Virus record (IMG/VR): IMGVR_UViG_3300031977_000242
Coordinates: 1 to 31,554 of that record
DNA: 31,554 nt
Direction: 5' to 3' (one strand)
From: a virus
Position 1 is the first letter of the stretch. The number at the start of each line of letters is the position of its first letter. This document shows, piece by piece, positions 3,942 to 30,609 of this stretch. The translations under genes and the position numbers were made by a program. The notes under the pieces are model-generated. The model did not search any database and was not told where the DNA came from. It was given only the letters and a program-made list of their open reading frames with translations.

Positions 3942-6900
3942 TTAGTCTCTTACGTTAGGGAATATATTATCGTCGTTTAGGCCAGCTTTGTTTTTACCAG
4001 TTCTCTCTTGACGGTCTCTAAACTGCTCTAACCAGTTTACTTCTTCTGTATATTCAACAGTTGGGTCTCTCATTAGAGCTTCAGCAGCAATCTCTCGCTG
4101 TTCTTTAATGATTTTTCTCACCTCGCTGGTGATGTAACCATCAGTGTTTGCTGTTCCAAAACCACGATTGTTTCGGTTTGCTAGGATTGGATAAAGCTTG
4201 TTTACCAAGCCTCCACCAGCGTTCCTGTAAAGTTCGACATACCTATCGTACATCGTCATTGTTTCTGTAGAACCATCCTGACGCTTAACAACTACATACT
4301 CTTTTGCCATGTCTATCTGACCAAAGTATTTTGGCAATTTAGATGGAATGGTAATGTATGAGTCTGTAGCTATACCCATAAGCTCAAGCTCACGAAGCAC
4401 AAATAAGTCTCTTTCAGACTTACCACCTCCCCGTTGTTCCTTACTTGTAAGGGTAACCCCTGTAAGTGCAGACATTGGGTTTTTAATTGGACGGGGATTA
4501 CCTAGAGGGTCATACTGATCCGCTACAGGCACTAATCCAAGACCAGCCCGTGCCTCAAGGTACTGTAAGTATGTCTTAGGGTTTTTGAGTGTTGGCTCAT
4601 CCTCTAAGAAAGCATTCTTTACCTTGTATATCATGTTGGGCATGGCAAGCTGTGTCTTTTGCCCTAAGAACTTAATTATGTTCTGAAGGTAAGTATCTTC
4701 ATTGCTCAGTACGTCTGTTCCCAAGTTGATAACCTGATCCAGACCTTCCATAAGACTCGCATCTTTAATAGCATTGAAGAGAGACCCTAAAGCAACGTAG
4801 GCAGAGTCAGTAGCGAACTTGAAGTCATTATCCACATACTCACCCTGACGACGACGATACTCGAGCATCTCATAGCTCTCCATAGCGTTGACTAGGATTT
4901 TTAGTGGAGTGGATAAAGGGTCAAAGCGGTTAAAGTTGAATGTATCCCCATCATCAAGTGTGATGCTATAGGGTTCAGCTCTATCGCCATCCTCACGGGA
5001 TTTACGCTTTCTGTAGTCAGAATTTGCAGAACCTGTGATTTTACCTTGAGAGTATTGAGTCATAACCCAGCCAGCAATGGCATAAGACATCAGAGCTTCA
5101 CCCTGCGCCCGTACTTGACGAGCTGTGCCATTTTTCCCTCGGAGGTCATCGATGTACCGTGGGGCAATGAGCTGAAACCCTGGGGTTAGTCTAATACCTT
5201 CTTCAAATACACGAACTGGTGTACGAAAGAAGAGCTGACCCATAATACGCATTAGAGGGTTATTTTTAACTATCTGCTCGTATGTGGCTGCGCCTTTAGA
5301 TATGTTGCCTTCTTCAGAGAACCTTCGCTTAAACAAAAGGTCTTCGGTGTAATCCCTTCCTTCTTTGTTCTTGCTTGTCTTAAAGAGGTCTCGGTTCTTC
5401 TTTAGCTCATCCTTTACAAAAGCTCTGGCTTGTTTAGCGTTCATGCCTCGAGACAGAGCCTGTTCTAGTAAGGTTTGTTTTACCTCAACCTCATCGATAG
5501 CTTCGTAAGCATTAGTTACTTGCTCATCCACTTTTTTCTGAATGTATTTCTTTAAGGCTTCACCTTTGAGAGGCTTAACTCTTTTCTGGTTATCTACTAG
5601 CGCATTAGCAACCGTCTGTCCTTCAATATAGCCCCTATAAGTTACCTGAGCGAAAAACTCGTCAGTAAAGTTTAGGGCGTTGGGGAAGAATCGGATGAAT
5701 GACCCTACAGGTATTTTATCCTTAATCTTCTTTGGCAAGACGTTGTGGTTTTCAATAAACTTACTGTAGTCACCAGTAAGCATAGACCGTTCATAACGAT
5801 AGGCGGTCAGGGCTGCTCTAAGCGCACCTCCAGTTACCTTACCCATGGCGTTATAGGTGGCAAAGAGTTTACCAAACCCTACACGACCATATTCACCCTC
5901 AACGGCAAAGTTGATAAAAGGCTTATATATTGTCTTAGCGAGGGAAGGGACGGTGTTAAATACAAGAGTGGAGGTGGTAAACACCGTACCAATAACGTAT
6001 TCGTTTACACCTTCTACAAGTCTATTAAATCTGTAGTAAGCTTTAGAGTTAGCATTTTCATATGCTTTATCTTGGAGCATCTGTCTGCGCTTTTTAATAA
6101 GCTCGAATGCTTTACCCGTACTACCACGCTTGATTGCCGTGTTGATTTGACCTGTTATGTTTTTGATTTCGTTATCCCGTCGAAGGGCATTTTCTTGCTT
6201 ATCAACTAGTTCGTTGAAAATCCTTCGTGCTTCTTCATCGGTTACATTCTTGTCTCTTTTGATGGATGCAGGGGTTACGTCCAGAAGCTTGCCTGTATTT
6301 AGATAATCTTGACGGAGACCAAATCCTCTAGCATTATCTGTTCTAAACATAGAGTCTAGAGTTTCAAGCTTAACAGTTAGCTCTTCAATCTCATCAGCCT
6401 GTTCAATTAAGCTTTGACGGGTGACATCATCCATCTCGCCATCTAGCGTCTTATTGATGTCCCGTATCTTTTGCTTTAGCTGTCCTACGTTATTTTGAAT
6501 GGATACACCTAGAGCATTTTTCTCTGCTGGAGTAATTTGATTGAACAGTTTACCCATAGCCACAATAACACTGTCAGTGTCAGTAGGAACAACATCAGCC
6601 ACAATCTGAGTTAAGATTTCAGTGGCCTCTTTGACGGCCTTACGGTTCTGTACGCCTTTTTTATCAACCCCAACGTATCCCTTAGCTGTAATAGTTTTCA
6701 AAGCTGACTGGATACGGTCTAGAGCTGTAACGGTAGCTGATGCAGGAGTAGATGTACCCTCAGCCTTAGCCTTGTTCAGAAGGTCGTCATTGGCCTTCAC
6801 AAGGTCTTCTGGAGTGATTGTCTTCTCTGCATCTTTTGCAGTGGCTTTTGTTTTTGGTGTAGGTTTATTAGCACCCACTTTTCTTTGAATGAAGTTAATA

Positions 6901-7715
6901 CCAGGTGTAAGGGCAAAACCCATAGTACCAGCAATAGCACCGCCATACAGAGAGGCTTTAGCCGCTTCTCCGTAGTCAATATCTTCACCCGTTACAGATG
7001 TCTCGATCTCTTGTCTATTGATATTATCAGCGTAAGAGTAGATAGCACCTTCTGTAGCGGCAATAGCAGTGTTACGAAGACCTCCTTTGAGAAGTTCTTT
7101 AACACCTATCTTGGTAGCTTGTTTACCAGCTTGGCTGGCGGCTGTAGCTAGACCAAACGATGCAAGGCCAGCCCATGTTGTGGGGTCTGTCCCTGTACCC
7201 TTAACAAAACGCCATACACCATCCCATGACATATTAAGGTCGTCATAGGCTTCCATAAGATATAGGAAAGATGCTTTTGATGTTTCATCAGCACGGGTGA
7301 TAATTGCGGTATCCACAGTCATCTTTGGGAGGTTGTAATTAAACCAACCCATAGTATCCAAAGCATAGTCTATTAGTTCTTCATCAGAACCCTCAAAGTC
7401 TTCTTGATTATTATTAAACTTGTAGACATTACGGGCGGCAATAAGAAAGTCTTCATCTTGAAGAAAAGTTTTCGCAGTACTTCCATCTTCGGTTTCTTCG
7501 AACCGAGTTGAGAAAGGTTGCTCTTCCTGATTAGCTGTGATGTCTATTTCAGTAATAGTGCCATCCCATTCAGGAAGTTCTTCGAGGTTCTGTACGCCAG
7601 ACTCCTCGATTGTTAAGTCTTGAGGCTCTGGAGTAGCAGTTTGTGTTTCCTGTTGTTCTTCATCCTCATCTGGATTCCAGACAGGAAGGTCGTTCAGGCT
7701 ACGAATATCTGCCAT
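3942..7715 (-). CDS. Large internal virion (ejection) protein, gp16-like
   Basis: At 1257 residues this is the longest protein in the window and occupies the place of T7 gene 16 (1318 residues), between the gp15-like gene and the tail fibre. In T7 the equivalent protein is ejected and helps span the cell envelope. The N-terminus is acidic (repeated E, D, Q and T in residues 1-70). Residues about 190-290 are Ala/Gly-rich and hydrophobic ('GLASFGLATAASQAG', 'AGTMGFALTPG') and could insert in membrane; the middle is charged and helical. T7 gp16 carries a lytic transglycosylase domain at its N-terminus. I see no such motif here. AGGAG lies upstream of the ATG, 3 bases after the gp15-like stop. 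The role is inferred from size and gene order. Confidence 0.8.
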   Translation of the reverse strand: MADIRSLNDLPVWNPDEDEEQQETQTATPEPQDLTIEESGVQNLEELPEWDGTITEIDITANQEEQPFSTRFEETEDGSTAKTFLQDEDFLIAARNVYKFNNNQEDFEGSDEELIDYALDTMGWFNYNLPKMTVDTAIITRADETSKASFLYLMEAYDDLNMSWDGVWRFVKGTGTDPTTWAGLASFGLATAASQAGKQATKIGVKELLKGGLRNTAIAATEGAIYSYADNINRQEIETSVTGEDIDYGEAAKASLYGGAIAGTMGFALTPGINFIQRKVGANKPTPKTKATAKDAEKTITPEDLVKANDDLLNKAKAEGTSTPASATVTALDRIQSALKTITAKGYVGVDKKGVQNRKAVKEATEILTQIVADVVPTDTDSVIVAMGKLFNQITPAEKNALGVSIQNNVGQLKQKIRDINKTLDGEMDDVTRQSLIEQADEIEELTVKLETLDSMFRTDNARGFGLRQDYLNTGKLLDVTPASIKRDKNVTDEEARRIFNELVDKQENALRRDNEIKNITGQINTAIKRGSTGKAFELIKKRRQMLQDKAYENANSKAYYRFNRLVEGVNEYVIGTVFTTSTLVFNTVPSLAKTIYKPFINFAVEGEYGRVGFGKLFATYNAMGKVTGGALRAALTAYRYERSMLTGDYSKFIENHNVLPKKIKDKIPVGSFIRFFPNALNFTDEFFAQVTYRGYIEGQTVANALVDNQKRVKPLKGEALKKYIQKKVDEQVTNAYEAIDEVEVKQTLLEQALSRGMNAKQARAFVKDELKKNRDLFKTSKNKEGRDYTEDLLFKRRFSEEGNISKGAATYEQIVKNNPLMRIMGQLFFRTPVRVFEEGIRLTPGFQLIAPRYIDDLRGKNGTARQVRAQGEALMSYAIAGWVMTQYSQGKITGSANSDYRKRKSREDGDRAEPYSITLDDGDTFNFNRFDPLSTPLKILVNAMESYEMLEYRRRQGEYVDNDFKFATDSAYVALGSLFNAIKDASLMEGLDQVINLGTDVLSNEDTYLQNIIKFLGQKTQLAMPNMIYKVKNAFLEDEPTLKNPKTYLQYLEARAGLGLVPVADQYDPLGNPRPIKNPMSALTGVTLTSKEQRGGGKSERDLFVLRELELMGIATDSYITIPSKLPKYFGQIDMAKEYVVVKRQDGSTETMTMYDRYVELYRNAGGGLVNKLYPILANRNNRGFGTANTDGYITSEVRKIIKEQREIAAEALMRDPTVEYTEEVNWLEQFRDRQERTGKNKAGLNDDNIFPNVRD

Positions 7716-7718
7716 GTT

Positions 7719-9488
7719 TTACTCCTGAATAATAAACCTATTAAAGGCTGGATTGTTTTGGTCAGCACTGGCTCGACGTACAGTTTTACCTTGACGTTGA
7801 GCTTCGGCTGCTTCCTCACGACCAACAGTCCTGTAATTTACACCGTTGATACGAACAGCGAGTGCATCGATGGTTTGTTGACCTAGTTGGATAGCCATAC
7901 TTGAAGCAGTAGGGTCTTTAGCGACTTTATCAATACTTTGTTTGTACTGCTCTACAGCACCTACAACACTCTCACGGATTTCCCGTAGTTGACGTTTGGT
8001 AGGCTGACGACCATCATTCTCCTCGATGGTAATCTCTAGAAGCTCCTGATACTCTTTCTCAGCAAACTCTTTGGCTGTTGAATAAGCGATTGTGTCATTA
8101 TTACCTACAGCTAGGGTGTCCCCAGTATTAAAGTTTGTTCTCTTGAGTGGAGAAAGGATACCTTCAATACTCTGTGTAAACGATGTGTATTCTGGAGAAC
8201 TCTTTACATTGGTAACACGACCAGCCGTGGTTGCTTTTGCGATTAAGGCAGGAGTGTCTTCGGGGCGAATGCCTTCTTGCGTTCTTGCCCAAAGTTCCAG
8301 TTGTTCTGCATCATTGATAACTTCTAAAGTTAGACCAAGAGCGTCCAAGTCGTCCTGTGACCCAGCATTGTCCATAGTCACTAACAAAGACTGTGCGTTA
8401 ATCTTAGAGTCATTTTTGTCGATACCTAAATTATCTTTTAGGCGTTGGAATGACCCTGAAAGGTCTGAGTGTATTTCGATAAACCGACGTTCTTCGTCAC
8501 TAGGTTTATAGGAAGGGTCTAACATCTTTTGACGTATATCTTGCTTACGGGCTGATATTTCATCACTCCGTGCATTGATACGGTTCTGCACGTCAGCAGC
8601 GTTTGCATCGGCAATACGACGCTCAACGTCAGCCATATAAGAGTTCCAGAGTTCTGGTTTATCCTTCATTGCACCCTTGTATTTCTCAGGTGTGTTTCGG
8701 ATAATCTCAATATTTCTTGATAGAACTGCTTGGTCAGTAGCTGCTTGTAAGATGTAGGCATTTCTTGTCCCACCTTGAATGAAATCATTCTTACCAGCAG
8801 AAACCCAAATCTTATCTTGTCTCTCTAGGGCATCCCAATCACCAGATGCCGCAAGAGACACATCAGTAGTTTGAAACTCATCCTGAGTTGCTTTTAGCTC
8901 ATCTGCCCGTTTACCAGCAACATATTGCTGTACCTGAGCTGAACGCTGACCATCTAGGTAGCCAAGCATCCCTGATACATAAGCACCGTTAGATTCACCA
9001 TAGATTTCACGGATGTACTGTTCTGCTGATGCATAGCCTTGATTGATACCATCTAGGGTATTAGCAAATCCTGTAGTGCTACCAAACTCATTAGTACTAG
9101 GCGCACCAATAGATGCTACTAAGCTCTGAAAGTTCTCATCCCGTTCCATAGTGGCCTTACCAGCCGCCTTGAGGATCATGAGCTTCCTTGTCATGCTCAT
9201 GTCGGGGTATAGTGTGTCTAGCTCTTGGATGCCTGTAGTATTGTCACCTTGCAGTGCCTTAGATACATAGCTGTCAAACTCTAGTTCAAACTTCTTGTTT
9301 GCCTCATCTATTTTTCTTTGGTCATTCCGTTGAGATGCGTCCAATACAACATTCAAGCTATTTGCCAAAAGCTCCGCAGAACTTCCAGCGTTTGGGTTAG
9401 CTCGATACTGTACTGCACCTGACCCCTGTCGTCCTATTCCCCTCGCAGTGGGAGACACAGGTGTTAAATCAACTGTAGTCCGTGCCAT
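7719..9488 (-). CDS. Internal virion protein, gp15-like
   Basis: A 589-residue, largely helical and charged protein starting MARTTVDLTPVSPTARGIG, with AAGGA upstream of the ATG. It sits between the gp14-like and gp16-like genes, exactly where T7 gene 15 (747 residues) lies. In T7, gp14, gp15 and gp16 form the inner core and leave the virion to make the conduit for DNA entry. The sequence shows long Gln/Glu/Lys-rich helices ('QRNDQRKIDEANKKFELEFDSYV', 'RRIADANAADVQNRINAR') typical of this core, and no enzymatic motif. Identification rests on order, size and composition, not on a specific motif. Confidence 0.75.
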   Translation of the reverse strand: MARTTVDLTPVSPTARGIGRQGSGAVQYRANPNAGSSAELLANSLNVVLDASQRNDQRKIDEANKKFELEFDSYVSKALQGDNTTGIQELDTLYPDMSMTRKLMILKAAGKATMERDENFQSLVASIGAPSTNEFGSTTGFANTLDGINQGYASAEQYIREIYGESNGAYVSGMLGYLDGQRSAQVQQYVAGKRADELKATQDEFQTTDVSLAASGDWDALERQDKIWVSAGKNDFIQGGTRNAYILQAATDQAVLSRNIEIIRNTPEKYKGAMKDKPELWNSYMADVERRIADANAADVQNRINARSDEISARKQDIRQKMLDPSYKPSDEERRFIEIHSDLSGSFQRLKDNLGIDKNDSKINAQSLLVTMDNAGSQDDLDALGLTLEVINDAEQLELWARTQEGIRPEDTPALIAKATTAGRVTNVKSSPEYTSFTQSIEGILSPLKRTNFNTGDTLAVGNNDTIAYSTAKEFAEKEYQELLEITIEENDGRQPTKRQLREIRESVVGAVEQYKQSIDKVAKDPTASSMAIQLGQQTIDALAVRINGVNYRTVGREEAAEAQRQGKTVRRASADQNNPAFNRFIIQE

Positions 9489-25860: not shown

Positions 25861-25883
25861 AGTCTCGTATATGTAAGTATTAA
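25861..25883 (-). repeat. Upstream half of the repeated module, copy 2
   Basis: The minus strand reads TTAATACTTACATATAC followed by GAGACT, beginning at the RNA polymerase stop codon. A near copy, TTATTACTTACACATAC then ACAGGAGACT, lies at 28427-28453 on the other side of the polymerase gene. Both copies stand a short distance upstream of a TTACCGCCAC element (6 and 26 bases). It also recalls T7-type promoters (TAATAC, TATA, GAGA), so this half rather than the other could be the promoter. Confidence 0.5.
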
Positions 25884-28360
25884 GAAAAGAAAAACTCACT
25901 GTCAGAGACCCCCTGAATATCCAAGTTACCTTTAGATGGTGGTAAGTTATGCTCGAAAGGCAGAGCTTCATGCAGTTCAGCCAGAGGGTCTGAATGCACA
26001 TACATAGAAATGAAGCTCGGCTTCACACAGCTATCGATGAAGGTTGGCATATGTGCAGCATGAACACCGAAGCTGTCATGGATCATAGCGTAACTAGTAA
26101 TCCCAACTCTAAGCCCATCGAGTACAGCCATACGCAGATGAGTAGCATCGAGAGAGTGAACAAAATTAGGCGCAACAGATAATGCCATGTCTTTTGCATC
26201 AAGGCCTGTAGTTTCTTCATAATATGTAAGCCTTACCCTTCCGTTCATGTAAGTATTTTGATGCATCTTTTTTTGTGATGCTCTGTACTGTACTACTTGG
26301 AAACCATCGGGTGTCGTCCATGTCATACGTTTGTCGTATCCAGAACATTCCAGCTTGTTATGGTATTTAGTCCACTCACGGGCAACAGAAGACAGCCAGT
26401 CCATAGCCACTTTACCCTTAACAACCACCTCATCGATGGCTGCCCAGATGTATCTGGCAAGTAGTACGACCATCGCTTGATCCTGCTTGTCATCCCACAT
26501 ACGCTGATGACCAGCCTTCAGCTTATCGACGTAAGCCTCTCGGGTGTATTCCATACAGCTCGAGAACTTACCAGCGTAAGGTATCACCATTGTCTGACGC
26601 TTGGTCATCTTACGGTCTATACCGAAGTTGACCCACAGCATGGCCTCTGGTGAACCCTCAGCAATGAGCATACGCTTGGCAACATCAGCCACATCAGCAT
26701 AGATATCCTGACGCTCTAAGCCTGGTATTAGGTTCACAGACTTACCCCCGACCTCATCTCTAAGCATCGCTGAGTAGTGCTGTAAGCCTGAACAGGTGGC
26801 ATCTACATGGCACGGGAAGTGCGAATAGAATACCTCACCACGCTTGTCTGTCTCCAACAGGTCTGCCCATTCCATACAGAATGACAAGAACATGAAGGGT
26901 TCATCAGCGTCCAACCACTGCTGGTTGTTTCGCCAGTCCCTACCACACTCGACAATCCAGTCTTCATTAGCAATCACCCAGTCAGCTCTGTCTTGTAGGG
27001 ATACCTTATCGTTACCCCAAGCATTAGCCCCAGCTACCGCAAGCCATGCAGCTTGTTCCATGTTCTGGATAGGTTGACCCTCAGCAAACTCCAGCATTGA
27101 TTTACCAAAGTCGGCTGCCTGTGGGTTTAGGAAGGCTGGTAATGGGTATGCCCTACCCCGTACATCCAGATTGTGCGGAAAGAATATCTGGTGAAACTGT
27201 TGGAACTTACGAGCGATAGACAGCGTAAAGACAACTGACAGTCTCTTTGAGATATCCTGACGGTTCTGGTCACGGATTAAAAAGACTTCTCTGTTGTGTG
27301 CTTTGCGTACCTGTTCGTCTGTATCGTAGGCTGGTGGCTTTGGTGGTAGCTCACGGGCATCCACTGTAGGTAGACCCCCACGGTCACCGCCTAGCTCATT
27401 AAAGACATAGTCCAGAGCATCCACCATGCGTCGCTTCACTCGCCACGGTGTCTCCTGTATGGCATTGATGGGTGGCAGGATACGCTCCCAGTCCATCCGT
27501 AGCATACGTTCAACATCACGTTTACCAGCACCCTTGATGATGCTGTATTTTTTCACACGGCCTTTGTTCAAGTACCCACCCTTGAATAGGTTGTACTCAG
27601 CAGACCACGGGCGAGGCTTGACGACCATCGGTAGGTACAGCGTGAAGTCCAGCACAGACCGCTTACAGGTCTGCTCAACGTGATCCACCAGCTCTTGGGT
27701 AGGTAAGACATAAGTTTTGGTGTGGTCTGCCTCTATGAGCTTTGTAGCCTCCATAAACAGCGTCATAAGTGCATACCCAATGAGTAGACACTCTCGCTGA
27801 GACCAACCACGCCATTCGACTTGTTCAGCATCGAAATACATCCGATAGGTACGCATACGCCAAGACGTTGGGTATGTACGCTTGTCCATGTCCTTAGTTA
27901 TCTTGTCGAGTAGGTTCTTGCGTTCCTTGACAGACCCAAAGAAAGCTAGACGCCACTCTGTATGGATAGCATCAACAGATTTAATGCAGAAGCTTGTGCG
28001 CTTGATTGGTTTAGACGAAAACAAGGGTATAAGGTTATATACCTGTTTGACATAGAGGTATGAGATAACCTCTGGATTAAGACCAGTCTGCCTTAGATAC
28101 TCAGCAGCTCTAGCACCCCTACCACCACTCTTCCTAGACAGGAACGAGATTAAAGCTTCAGTGAACTTACGCTGGGCTGAAGAGACATACCTATTACCAA
28201 TCTTACTTTCAGACCATGCACTCCTAGAGTTAGACTCTAAGTTATCTTTAGTCATTCTAGTCTTAGCACTAGTATAGATATCTTCTTCTAATTTATCCTG
28301 TAAGACGCTATTACTAAAGTCATCACTACAGTTTAACTTATAGTTATACTCTTGGTTCAT
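25880..28360 (-). CDS. Single-subunit phage RNA polymerase (T7 gp1-like)
   Basis: An 826-residue polymerase, compared with 883 for T7. I prefer the ATG ending at 28360 (MNQEYNYKLNCSDDFS), with GAGGAG 9 bases upstream. An in-frame ATG ending at 28423 (MTRHTVSEL) also has a strong AGGAGA site and would add 21 residues. Motifs by the short numbering: 'NLDVRGRAY' near 398-406; catalytic Asp520 in 'HVDATCSGLQHY' (T7 D537); K587 and Y595 in 'MTKRQTMVIPYAGK' (T7 K631/Y639); and Asp762 in MIHDSFGVH (T7 D812). It transcribes middle and late phage genes. 'VAPNFVHSLDATHLR' follows the specificity-loop region. Confidence 0.96.
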   Translation of the reverse strand: MNQEYNYKLNCSDDFSNSVLQDKLEEDIYTSAKTRMTKDNLESNSRSAWSESKIGNRYVSSAQRKFTEALISFLSRKSGGRGARAAEYLRQTGLNPEVISYLYVKQVYNLIPLFSSKPIKRTSFCIKSVDAIHTEWRLAFFGSVKERKNLLDKITKDMDKRTYPTSWRMRTYRMYFDAEQVEWRGWSQRECLLIGYALMTLFMEATKLIEADHTKTYVLPTQELVDHVEQTCKRSVLDFTLYLPMVVKPRPWSAEYNLFKGGYLNKGRVKKYSIIKGAGKRDVERMLRMDWERILPPINAIQETPWRVKRRMVDALDYVFNELGGDRGGLPTVDARELPPKPPAYDTDEQVRKAHNREVFLIRDQNRQDISKRLSVVFTLSIARKFQQFHQIFFPHNLDVRGRAYPLPAFLNPQAADFGKSMLEFAEGQPIQNMEQAAWLAVAGANAWGNDKVSLQDRADWVIANEDWIVECGRDWRNNQQWLDADEPFMFLSFCMEWADLLETDKRGEVFYSHFPCHVDATCSGLQHYSAMLRDEVGGKSVNLIPGLERQDIYADVADVAKRMLIAEGSPEAMLWVNFGIDRKMTKRQTMVIPYAGKFSSCMEYTREAYVDKLKAGHQRMWDDKQDQAMVVLLARYIWAAIDEVVVKGKVAMDWLSSVAREWTKYHNKLECSGYDKRMTWTTPDGFQVVQYRASQKKMHQNTYMNGRVRLTYYEETTGLDAKDMALSVAPNFVHSLDATHLRMAVLDGLRVGITSYAMIHDSFGVHAAHMPTFIDSCVKPSFISMYVHSDPLAELHEALPFEHNLPPSKGNLDIQGVSDSEFFFS

Positions 28361-28426: not shown

Positions 28427-28453
28427 AGTCTCCTGTGTATGTGTAAGTAATAA
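28427..28453 (-). repeat. Upstream half of the repeated module, copy 1
   Basis: The minus strand reads TTATTACTTACACATAC followed by ACAGGAGACT; the copy after the polymerase gene (25861-25883) differs at a few bases and lacks four. The AGGAGA part also serves as a good ribosome binding site for the ATG ending at 28423. The shared core is TTAwTACTTACAyATAC. Confidence 0.5.
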
Positions 28454-28461
28454 GGTATCGT

Positions 28462-28490
28462 CTAGCCCCTGTAGGATATACAAGGGCTAG
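28462..28490 (-). other. 11-bp stem hairpin between tRNA and RNA polymerase gene
   Basis: The minus strand reads CTAGCCCTTGT, loop ATATCCT, ACAGGGGCTAG: 11 pairs with one G-T. No run of T follows on either strand, so it does not look like a terminator. The 186-base stretch 28361-28546 holds no independent gene. This hairpin could be an RNase III-type processing site, as found between T7 early genes, a tRNA-release structure, or a recombination dyad. Confidence 0.6.
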
Positions 28491-28524
28491 AGCTTATTTA
28501 TGGATGTGTAAGAGAGTCTAAAGG

Positions 28525-28543
28525 GATTTTAAGACTCTTGTGT
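28525..28543 (-). repeat. Imperfect copy of the tRNA anticodon arm
   Basis: Just 3' of the tRNA, the minus strand reads ACACAAGAGTCTTAAAATC. The tRNA anticodon arm (28594-28610) reads ACACAAGACTTAAAATC. They are identical apart from a two-base insertion (GT). The copy lies 3 bases after the encoded CCA. It may be a trace of an old integration or duplication at the tRNA. It also forms a hairpin of its own with AGACTC further downstream. Confidence 0.5.
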
Positions 28544-28546
28544 AAA

Positions 28547-28634
28547 TGGTGGGGACACCCAGACTTGAACTGGGAAGGCTTGTTCAGCCGCAAGATTTTA
28601 AGTCTTGTGTGTTTACCAATTTCACCATGCCCCC
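28547..28634 (-). tRNA. tRNA-Leu(UAA), complete, CCA encoded
   Basis: An 88-base class II tRNA folds fully: acceptor GGGGGCA with TGTCCCC (one G-T), D stem GTG/CAC, anticodon stem CAAGA/TCTTG with loop CTTAAAA (anticodon TAA), variable arm GGCT/AGCC, T stem CCCAG/CTGGG with loop TTCAAGT, discriminator A and CCA. No mismatch breaks a stem, so it looks functional and reads UUA/UUG. It lies 53 bases downstream of the integrase gene, on the same strand and with phage genes on both sides. It is therefore a phage gene that probably contains the attP core, since T7-like temperate marine phages commonly integrate in tRNA genes. Confidence 0.95.
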
Positions 28635-28652
28635 ACTGAGCTGTGCCAAATA

Positions 28653-28682
28653 TGGCACAAGGTGTCACAAGTTGTGTCACAA
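28653..28682 (-). repeat. Direct repeats next to the integrase, likely arm-type sites
   Basis: In the 53 bases between integrase and tRNA, the minus strand carries TTGTGACAC twice with 12-base spacing (28674-28682 and 28662-28670), then a degenerate third, TTGTGCCA. The last overlaps a small palindrome, GTGCCA-TATT-TGGCAC (28643-28658). Short direct repeats beside attP are typical binding sites for the N-terminal domain of tyrosine integrases. The gap holds no gene. Confidence 0.6.
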
Positions 28683-28687
28683 TATCA

Positions 28688-29659
28688 TTAACCTTCCAAA
28701 GCTTCAAGACAAACATCCAGATCATCTGGTGCTAAGTGGCTGTATCTCATGGTCATTGCGATAGTACTGTGACCCAGCCAGACCTGGACTCTACGGATAT
28801 CCACCCCAGACTGAACCAGCCGTGATGCACAAGTATGACGCATCACATGGGGTATCACATCCTCACCCAGCCCAGCCATTGCTCTAGCCTTCTCAAAGAC
28901 TGTACGGTAGGTGTTACGGTTGATATGACTGAAGGGCTGCTGGGTATCCCGAGGGCAACGCTCAAGTATCTCACGGCAACGCTTGGTAAGCGGTACGGTG
29001 CGAGGTGTGTTGCTCTTGGTATGCCAGAGGGTCACCTTGCCATCATTGTAGTCATTCCATGTGAACTTTAGTGCCTCACCAAAACGAAAGCCTGTATCAA
29101 TCAGGAATGCAGTGAAGTCTGCAAACTCTGGTCTCAGGTATCCAAGTCTGTCCAGCAGTCGGGTCTCTTCCTCTTTTGATAAGAAGCGAAGTCGTCCCCG
29201 ACCTTCCTTCAGACGAGGGATGTCAGGCTTATCTGCCAGCACCTTGGTCTTCTTGGCCTGTGTAAGTATCTTGGACAGTGATGCCATCTTACGATTGATT
29301 GTAGCATCAGCATTGCGACGCTGTTTCAGGGCGGTAACAATGTTCTCTATGTGCTGGTCTGTAATCTGAGACACAGGACAGTCGGCGATGATAGAGGCAA
29401 TCTCGTTAAGTTGACTGATGACCTTCATACCATGCTGGGTATCACCCCATAGAACGCTGTGTACTCGCCTGTAGTACTGTGTGAAGCTCTCAGCACTAGG
29501 TGCTATACCCTCAGAGCTAATAGGCTCACCACGAGCGATTGCAAGCTTGACTGAAGCTTCCCAGAGTTCAGCATCTTTCTTATTGCTGAAGCTCTTTCTT
29601 ATGCGCTTCGTTGATGTCTTTACGTCGCCTTGCCATTGATTCCCACGCTGTCTCGCCAT
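28688..29659 (-). CDS. int: Tyrosine-type integrase
   Basis: A 323-residue site-specific recombinase. I choose the ATG ending at 29659 (MARQRGNQWQGDVKTSTKRI): it has GGAG 8 bases upstream and is the usual integrase N-terminus. The frame stays open upstream through the 104-residue gene, but that extension is unlike the family. The full catalytic set is visible: R192 (TGFRFGEAL), K215 (WHTKSNTPR), H271 and R274 (HVMRHTCASR), H297 (WLGHST) and nucleophile Y306 (MRYSHL). The N-terminal part (about 1-50) fits an arm-binding domain and residues 60-150 a core-binding SAM-like domain. It should catalyse integration at the adjacent tRNA-Leu. No excisionase is recognised. Confidence 0.95.
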   Translation of the reverse strand: MARQRGNQWQGDVKTSTKRIRKSFSNKKDAELWEASVKLAIARGEPISSEGIAPSAESFTQYYRRVHSVLWGDTQHGMKVISQLNEIASIIADCPVSQITDQHIENIVTALKQRRNADATINRKMASLSKILTQAKKTKVLADKPDIPRLKEGRGRLRFLSKEEETRLLDRLGYLRPEFADFTAFLIDTGFRFGEALKFTWNDYNDGKVTLWHTKSNTPRTVPLTKRCREILERCPRDTQQPFSHINRNTYRTVFEKARAMAGLGEDVIPHVMRHTCASRLVQSGVDIRRVQVWLGHSTIAMTMRYSHLAPDDLDVCLEALEG

Positions 29660-29894
29660 TCTTATGTCTCCATGCATTCCAGTACTTGTTATCAAAATGA
29701 GGTGATGTGCATTGAACTGCATATTCACGGTCTGCTTCTGGATACCTTGCAGTATAGTAAGCCGCTTGTATCCGTAAGTTTTCAGCCAGCTTATCATTAC
29801 CTTCCCACTCAGCTTCCCCAGCCGCATAGCTGAGGAACTTTCGAGCCTCTGGGTAATTCAGGCCATGTTCATTCGCTTTTGAATACTCTCTCAT
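29580..29894 (-). CDS. Hypothetical early protein overlapping the integrase start (104 aa)
   Basis: A 104-residue, charged, helical protein: MREYSKANEHGLNYPEARKF ... ending HKKELQQ. Its ATG lies within the last 26 bases of the MarR-like gene, with AGGAAAGG upstream. Its last 80 bases overlap the integrase start in another frame. No family is recognised. The small size, charge and position beside int would suit an excisionase or recombination-directionality factor, but no such motif is seen and this is only positional. It could equally be a host-takeover protein. Confidence 0.65.
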   Translation of the reverse strand: MREYSKANEHGLNYPEARKFLSYAAGEAEWEGNDKLAENLRIQAAYYTARYPEADREYAVQCTSPHFDNKYWNAWRHKNGETAWESMARRRKDINEAHKKELQQ

Positions 29895-30195
29895 AGAAAG
29901 CCTTTCCTGATTTGGTTAATTTGACAACCCTGTAACGCTCATCCACTGGGTCTGGGTAGGACTCGATGTACTCTAAGCCAGCAGTCTGCTTGGCCTTATC
30001 TTTCCATCTTCCCCACCATTTAATACATCTTGAAGCTGTAGCGTTGGATAGTCCTAAGTATTGTTCGAGGTCGTATTGGTGTCGTCCCTCGTTTTCTGCT
30101 ACCCAGATGAAACTTAAAATGTATGTTAGTGGCATCGCAGGATATAAAGTGTAAAACTGCTCTAGCACCCCCTTAATGTTTACTGTTTTTGTCAT
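29869..30195 (-). CDS. MarR-like winged-helix DNA-binding protein
   Basis: I use the ATG ending at 30195 (MTKTVNIKGVLEQFYTLYPA, 108 residues), with GAGG about 10 bases upstream. A TTG three codons earlier is less likely. The middle and end follow the MarR plan: 'HQYDLEQYLGLSNATASRCIKWW' as helix-turn-helix and 'DPVDERYRVVKLTKSGKAFYERVF' as beta wing plus last helix. It is the only clear regulator next to the integrase, so it may control the lysogeny decision or its own promoter at 30415-30443. That role is inferred. MarR proteins usually bind as dimers to 15-20-bp palindromes, and one lies at 30387-30401. Confidence 0.82.
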   Translation of the reverse strand: MTKTVNIKGVLEQFYTLYPAMPLTYILSFIWVAENEGRHQYDLEQYLGLSNATASRCIKWWGRWKDKAKQTAGLEYIESYPDPVDERYRVVKLTKSGKAFYERVFKSE

Positions 30196-30234
30196 AGCTT
30201 CCAATCCTCATTTATAGTCGGTAGGCGACTAGGG

Positions 30235-30582: not shown

Positions 30583-30609
30583 AAAAAAAACCCCCGATAT
30601 TCTCGGGGG
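30583..30609 (-). terminator. Intrinsic terminator of the right-end operon
   Basis: The minus strand reads CCCCCGA, loop GAATA, TCGGGGG, then eight T. It lies 8 bases after the stop of the 29-residue gene and separates the right-end operon from the integrase control region. On the plus strand the hairpin is followed only by GCTTTCTG, so it acts mainly on minus-strand transcripts. Confidence 0.93.

Follow-up and report, generated by a model that had tools for sequence, protein, structure and literature searches.

A probable tRNA-dependent integration module, with a complete tRNA-Leu(UAA) beside a short anticodon-loop core, in a temperate T7-like phage

Introduction

tRNA-dependent lysogeny was described for actinobacteriophages in 2024, being named and proved in mycobacteriophages; in this mode the att core is too short to rebuild the host tRNA and the phage carries a complete cognate tRNA (PMC10865867). 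The same mechanism had been described in substance for T7-like phages of Rhizobium in 2021 (PMC8631192); tRNA substitution has further been reported for Sinorhizobium prophages (PMC11476347) and attributed to Lo5R7ANS-like prophages (PMC12429752). The tRNA of the Pseudomonas phage LUZ100 has been read as a product of imprecise excision (PMC10134795), and that paper relays, at second hand, a similar hypothesis for pelagiphages.

Here we analyze a window that comprises a whole IMG/VR record, a linear contig of 31.5 kb (31,554 nucleotides) representing the incomplete genome of a marine virus, in which a complete tRNA-Leu(UAA) follows a tyrosine integrase gene on the same strand. Among its closest described counterparts is the vTRX32-1/RHEph01 group (Rhizobium Autographiviridae of the genus Paadamvirus, PMC8631192), which is likewise temperate and T7-like, uses a 12-bp core from the anticodon loop of tRNA-Leu (CAGATTTAGGTT), and interrupts the host tRNA-Leu while replacing it with a complete phage tRNA-Leu. 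In that group, however, the tRNA is of the UAG type and stands before the integrase gene on the opposite strand without the core motif, whereas the window tRNA reads UAA, stands after the integrase gene and contains the 9-nt loop. The window lies outside Paadamvirus, a genus with >70% ANI among its members (PMC8631192), as its RNA polymerase (RNAP) and integrase are each 31.6% identical to those of RHEph01. The actinobacteriophages (Fionnbharth, Gaia and others; PMC10865867) share a tyrosine integrase, an attB overlapping a tRNA gene, a core of 8–17 bp and a complete cognate tRNA near the integrase gene; they differ in belonging to several clusters, none T7-like, in using the isotypes Lys, Ile2 and Leu(CAA), and in that the need for the tRNA was demonstrated there with mutants. 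LUZ100 and the pelagiphages HTVC119P, HTVC200P and S28-C10 are Autographiviridae with a MarR-type regulator, an integrase, an RNAP, a complete tRNA-Leu(UAA) and a copy of its anticodon loop, but their tRNA is upstream of the integrase gene on the opposite strand and their integrases are only 35–36% identical to that of the window. Finally, in the T7-like cyanophages P-SSP7 and S-TIP37 the integrase gene is followed by an attP matching tRNA-Leu (PMC8776855); this attP is identical to a segment of the host tRNA-Leu, 42 bp long in a P-SSP7-type site (PMC3861242), and neither of these two papers describes a complete phage tRNA there.

The mechanism as such is therefore not new, having been published for both Rhizobium T7-like phages and mycobacteriophages. 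Within the literature searched, which did not extend to the original pelagiphage integration paper, we found no description of the marine UAA clade, the cassette-like exchange of the tRNA, the Parvibaculum and Xanthobacter cases or the extension to LUZ100 and the pelagiphages presented below.

Results and Discussion

Organization of the window

On the minus strand the genes run in the order regulator, small ORF, integrase, tRNA and RNAP, after which come the replication and virion genes of T7 type. The block formed by the integrase and the tRNA is flanked by genes for the T7-type RNAP, primase-helicase, DNA polymerase A, endonuclease I, single-strand binding protein, capsid, head-tail connector and tail. 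The single-subunit RNAP and a unidirectional set of T7-type replication and morphogenesis genes place the phage in the Autographiviridae. The features of the block and its surroundings are as follows.

25880..28360, minus strand: T7-type RNAP, 826 aa, probable start ATG at 28360 (phrog_414, E 2.8e-208; PF00940)
28436..28447, minus strand: CTTACACATACA, copy 2 of a direct repeat on the RNAP side, kept in all tRNA types, candidate arm-type site
28461..28491, minus strand: hairpin of 13 bp in the stretch from the core to the RNAP gene, pairing kept while the sequence changes
28501..28512, minus strand: CTTACACATCCA, copy 1 of a direct repeat on the RNAP side, kept in all three tRNA types, candidate arm-type site
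28525..28540, minus strand: CAAGAGTCTTAAAATC, invariant in the clade and present once in the window, proposed region of the attP core
28525..28533, minus strand: CTTAAAATC, 9 nt within CAAGAGTCTTAAAATC, identical to the anticodon loop of a tRNA-Leu(UAA) together with two of its stem bases; preceded by ACACAAGAGT and followed, on the RNAP side, by CCCTTTAGACTC
28547..28634, minus strand: complete tRNA-Leu(UAA), 88 nt including CCA (ARAGORN, Rfam), proposed substitute for a host tRNA broken by integration
28662..28682, minus strand: direct repeat TTGTGACAC, two copies 12 nt apart on the integrase side, candidate arm-type integrase sites by anatomy only
28688..29659, minus strand: tyrosine integrase of 323 aa whose conserved start is M57 of the longer ORF 28688–29827 (PF00589, E 1.8e-27; phrog_1 integrase)
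29869..30204, minus strand: small transcription regulator (phrog_9665, E 2e-21)

The integrase relatives are 94, 84, 77 and 77% identical to that of the window, and in a 12-member alignment R192, K215, R274, H297 and Y306 are invariant and H271 nearly so. A sequence-only reading of the window had taken the catalytic residues to be intact; the R-K-H-R-H-Y set is indeed all present, and the upper limit of 29659 adopted there agrees with the conserved start M57. The RNAP has the same length in the window and in the related contigs L004 and L076. A Pfam search with the regulator gave no match; in the relatives a MarR-type regulator is annotated at the corresponding position. Elsewhere in the window, two large ORFs (3942–7715, 1257 aa; 7719–9488, 589 aa) occupy the place where internal virion proteins of T7-like phages are expected, and they matched nothing in Pfam or PHROGs.

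The phage tRNA is complete and under constraint

The Rfam tRNA model matches 28547–28634 with 58.5 bits (E 2.2e-10); the stems of the acceptor, T and anticodon arms are paired along their whole length, position 73 is A and the CCA is encoded. ARAGORN and Rfam thus bear out the earlier description of a complete, CCA-ending tRNA-Leu(UAA) 53 nt past an intact integrase gene, with phage genes on both sides. All 88 positions are identical between the window and the related contig L007, while the integrase genes of the two agree at 760 of 972 bases (78%); between the window and L003 the tRNA shows a paired T-stem change, A-T versus G-C. The tRNA gene is accordingly under constraint, and these observations, together with three intact versions of the gene in the clade (see below), support the proposal that the phage brings what, to judge from its sequence, is a working tRNA. 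No sigma-70 promoter was found for the window tRNA itself, promoter matches being no more frequent than in shuffles.

Such a tRNA might serve the lytic cycle irrespective of integration, either by supplying UUA/UUG decoding or by conferring resistance to tRNA-cleaving host defences. Many lytic phages do carry a tRNA-Leu(UAA), and lytic and lysogenic roles are not exclusive. However, UUA constitutes only 12.6% of the leucine codons of the window, on which ground a codon-supply role was rejected; moreover, the gene stands beside the integrase gene in all clade members, and the twelve integrase-bearing relatives that lack the tRNA also lack a convincing cognate copy of the anticodon loop. A role unrelated to integration appears very unlikely to us.

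Three tRNA types beside one invariant candidate core

Ten related contigs were gathered by integrase and DNA-pattern scans of viral contigs. In every one that reaches the position after the integrase gene, a complete tRNA-Leu(UAA) is found there (L008 ends within it). These tRNAs are of three types: the window type (L002/L009, L003, L007 and L008), a second type identical to the window at 55 of 88 positions (L004 and L005) and a third identical at 65 of 88 (L076–L079). The 16-mer CAAGAGTCTTAAAATC lies 6–7 nt past the tRNA, is invariant at 16 of 16 positions across all three types and occurs once per clade locus, while the bases that separate it from the tRNA vary among the contigs. The 9-nt copy within it is weak on its own in the window, being equalled by 17 of 500 dinucleotide shuffles. 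The 16-mer was also considered as a repeated phage promoter, which its presence only once in the window ruled out.

The sequence-only reading had allowed that the phage acquired its whole target by imprecise excision, in which case the host tRNA was captured by chance and is not needed. This is a simple explanation, compatible with a complete gene next to the integrase gene. It is, however, unneeded, and it leaves unexplained why three different complete tRNAs lie beside one fixed core and why their isotype agrees with that core. Nor would an unneeded gene be expected to stay intact with paired changes in three versions, to show a paired change in the variable arm between HTVC119P and HTVC200P, or to be the only intact copy found in lysogens (see below). 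Of the readings weighed here we consider this the least probable.

Search for the host, and the tRNA as a possible attP

In the canonical arrangement the phage tRNA would itself be the attP, as the sequence-only reading had implied: after a crossover in its anticodon loop, the phage 3' half would restore the host gene, and the 5' half would be extra homology. In line with this, the tRNA abuts the integrase gene, T7-like cyanophages use a tRNA-Leu attP (PMC8776855), certain T7-like prophages have long cores or a rebuilt tRNA (see below), and, since the window tRNA also contains CTTAAAATC, a crossover inside it is compatible with the sequence. A canonical attP should show a long exact match of the tRNA 3' half to a host gene, and the lack of one had been named as refuting this reading; the 3' 56 nt of the window tRNA indeed had no match among the bacterial tRNAs of 84,980 prokaryote species, although the host may be unsampled. 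Among 369 gammaproteobacterial genomes the best tRNA matches were partial only (91% over 46 nt and 93% over 42 nt). Furthermore, the invariant candidate core is external to the tRNA, lysogens with the same layout cross over in this short copy, and three different tRNA types would require three host ranges together with one unchanged external motif. The tRNA as attP is thus improbable, if somewhat less so than the preceding alternatives.

No lysogen or host of the window's clade was detected in the 84,980 genomes, the closest RNAP being 51% identical and located on a 3-kb contig. A search for the integration junction in viral contigs with an RNAP-side pattern recovered only unintegrated forms of the known clade.

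Related lysogens have a broken host tRNA

We scanned the 84,980 bacterial and archaeal genomes (species) with a T7-type RNAP profile, obtaining 71 loci, located the integrase end of each prophage with an integrase profile and rebuilt the empty sites by joining both prophage flanks. The RNAP and integrase genes are separated in the prophages, as expected from an attP lying between them. Inquilinus, Microvirga, a Bacillota MAG and Polynucleobacter were left out as they offered no usable junction. In six T7-like lysogens the joined flanks restore an intact host tRNA-Leu, with short cores of 8–17 bp. Two of these have the order of the window, i.e., integrase, complete tRNA-Leu(UAA), core: a Parvibaculum MAG, whose core (CAGACTTAAAATCTGCT) measures 17 bp, and Xanthobacter sp. 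YC-JY1, a complete genome with the 11-bp core GACTTAAAATC; joining the flanks of either prophage yields a site with the fold of tRNA-Leu(UAA). In R. anhuiense (CCBAU 23252) and R. mongolense (R. mongolense/loessense CGMCC 1.3401) cores of 12 and 15 bp, respectively, lie in tRNA-Leu(UAG), and a phage tRNA-Leu(UAG) precedes the integrase gene; these two results independently reproduce PMC8631192, which includes both strains. The cores of the last two lysogens, a Rhizobiales isolate with 11 bp and a Hyphomicrobiales MAG with 8 bp, lie in tRNA-Leu(UAA), with the phage tRNA elsewhere near the integrase gene.

At the junctions of all six lysogens the host tRNA is cut in the anticodon loop and no tRNA is encoded except the complete phage one, so that the host tRNA is not rebuilt at attL or attR, including in the two lysogens with the window layout. 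Pattern searches, which fall short of a full tRNA census, found a single host gene of the broken isotype in each of the six genomes, namely the broken one. On the other hand, long cores are present in the T7-like prophages of Rhodanobacter sp. ANJX3 (45 bp) and A1T4 (59 bp), and a gammaproteobacterial MAG holds a T7-like prophage with an intact tRNA-Leu(UAA) beside the RNAP gene. Thus, both modes of integration coexist among T7-like prophages.

As a separate observation, the "tRNA-Leu(UAA)" of the Hyphomicrobiales MAG prophage (L168, reverse complement, 1398–1474) is only 77 nt long and does not have the long variable arm typical of leucine tRNAs, even though the host gene for this isotype is broken; how such a tRNA would be charged is puzzling.

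Anticodon-loop copies in other temperate T7-like phages

A copy of the anticodon loop was found between the integrase and RNAP genes in all tRNA-carrying temperate T7-like phages examined (HTVC119P, HTVC200P, S28-C10, LUZ100, L091, RHEph01, RHEph21, Limnohabitans YIMV22061 and Lo5R7ANS), and it carries the anticodon of the phage's own tRNA, i.e., UAA with UAA and UAG with UAG; in YIMV22061 it is on the opposite strand, like the tRNA. The copy was equalled by none of 500 dinucleotide shuffles in HTVC119P, HTVC200P and L091, by one in YIMV22061 and by two in S28-C10. It is marginal in LUZ100 (45/500), as in the window, and by itself not significant in L076 (79/500), RHEph01, RHEph21 and Lo5R7ANS; where the shuffles are marginal or non-significant, conservation or lysogen junctions carry the case, Lo5R7ANS excepted. 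Twelve integrase-bearing relatives lack a complete tRNA; none of them has a convincing cognate copy, and a loop copy with UAA or UAG is absent from ten. Between the integrase and RNAP genes HTVC109P (L206) has a longer 5' half of tRNA-Leu(UAA), as in a canonical attP, and HTVC309P (L215) a weak ACTTAAAAT adjacent to the 5' half of what resembles a tRNA-Arg; these half-tRNAs indicate that related phages use different isotypes and both modes of integration.

L091, a contig of 7.5 kb that was assigned to a "Bacteroidetes" MAG from Chesapeake Bay, carries a T7-like module of integrase, tRNA-Leu(UAA), ACACAGACTTAAAATCTC and RNAP; it is probably a misbinned phage.

Proposed mechanism

We propose, with a probability of about 0.83, that this block serves a temperate T7-like phage for integration by tRNA-dependent lysogeny. 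The window holds the phage tyrosine integrase, a complete and, as far as its sequence tells, plausibly functional tRNA and, separate from it, the invariant 16-mer containing CTTAAAATC; a short core matching the host tRNA of the same isotype is seen in the six related lysogens. Applied to the window, tRNA-dependent lysogeny predicts the anticodon-loop copy, rather than the phage tRNA, as the attP core. The integrase would recombine CTTAAAATC, contained in the CAAGAGTCTTAAAATC stretch that closely follows the 3' end of the phage tRNA, with the anticodon loop of a host tRNA-Leu(UAA). Because the common stretch is too short to rebuild it, the host gene would be left in two halves, the 5' half ending beside the phage RNAP gene and the 3' half beyond the integrase gene. 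The complete phage tRNA-Leu(UAA), kept beside the integrase gene on the prophage, would then take over the reading of UUA and UUG. The anatomy of the block, the constraint on its tRNA, the invariance of the core and the broken host tRNA in six related lysogens are shown here, the last by rebuilding the empty sites; that the window phage does likewise and that its tRNA is essential to the lysogen is what we infer from them. The host half of the mechanism is drawn from homology of layout, as no host or lysogen of the window's clade was found in the genomes searched. Of the sequence-only reading, the working tRNA is retained, while the tRNA as attP and the capture of the whole target by imprecise excision are given up.

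More generally, the odds seem to us even that the replacement tRNA is an exchangeable cassette beside a fixed anticodon-loop core and that tRNA-dependent lysogeny is common in temperate Autographiviridae, including SAR11 phages and LUZ100. One att system could then serve hosts whose tRNA bodies differ, as only the conserved anticodon loop must match. With no more than this near-universal loop required by the core, attP and host would be less tightly linked, which would explain why matching the tRNA to bacterial genomes misses the host. If this is true, the tRNA beside the integrase gene of many temperate T7-like phages is a replacement for a destroyed gene and not debris, and its deletion is predicted to make integration lethal in abundant marine phages.

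Other elements of the block

The TTGTGACAC pair and the CTTACACATMCA pair are candidate arm sites on anatomy alone. In the hairpin at 28461–28491, six pairs are changed on both sides and 94.5% of cells are paired across the window, L003, L007, L004, L005, L076 and L078; one idea is that in a lysogen it protects the RNAP gene against transcription running on from the promoter of the host tRNA. Directly before the tRNA lies a dyad, TGTGCCATATTTGGCACA (28642–28659), whose core is kept in L003, L007 and L072 and altered in types 2 and 3; it is possibly an operator or an integrase arm site. Upstream of the regulator and integrase genes, a stem, CCCCCGAGAATATCGGGGG, followed by eight T (30583–30609, minus strand) is likely a terminator isolating the lysogeny module. 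Finally, one type-1 and one type-2 phage, but not their close relatives, have a small protein gene (MPKVTIRF.../MPKITIRF...) between the integrase gene and the tRNA (L002, 7139–7420; L005, 3026–3274); its product has no Pfam match and is possibly that of a mobile early gene or an excision factor.
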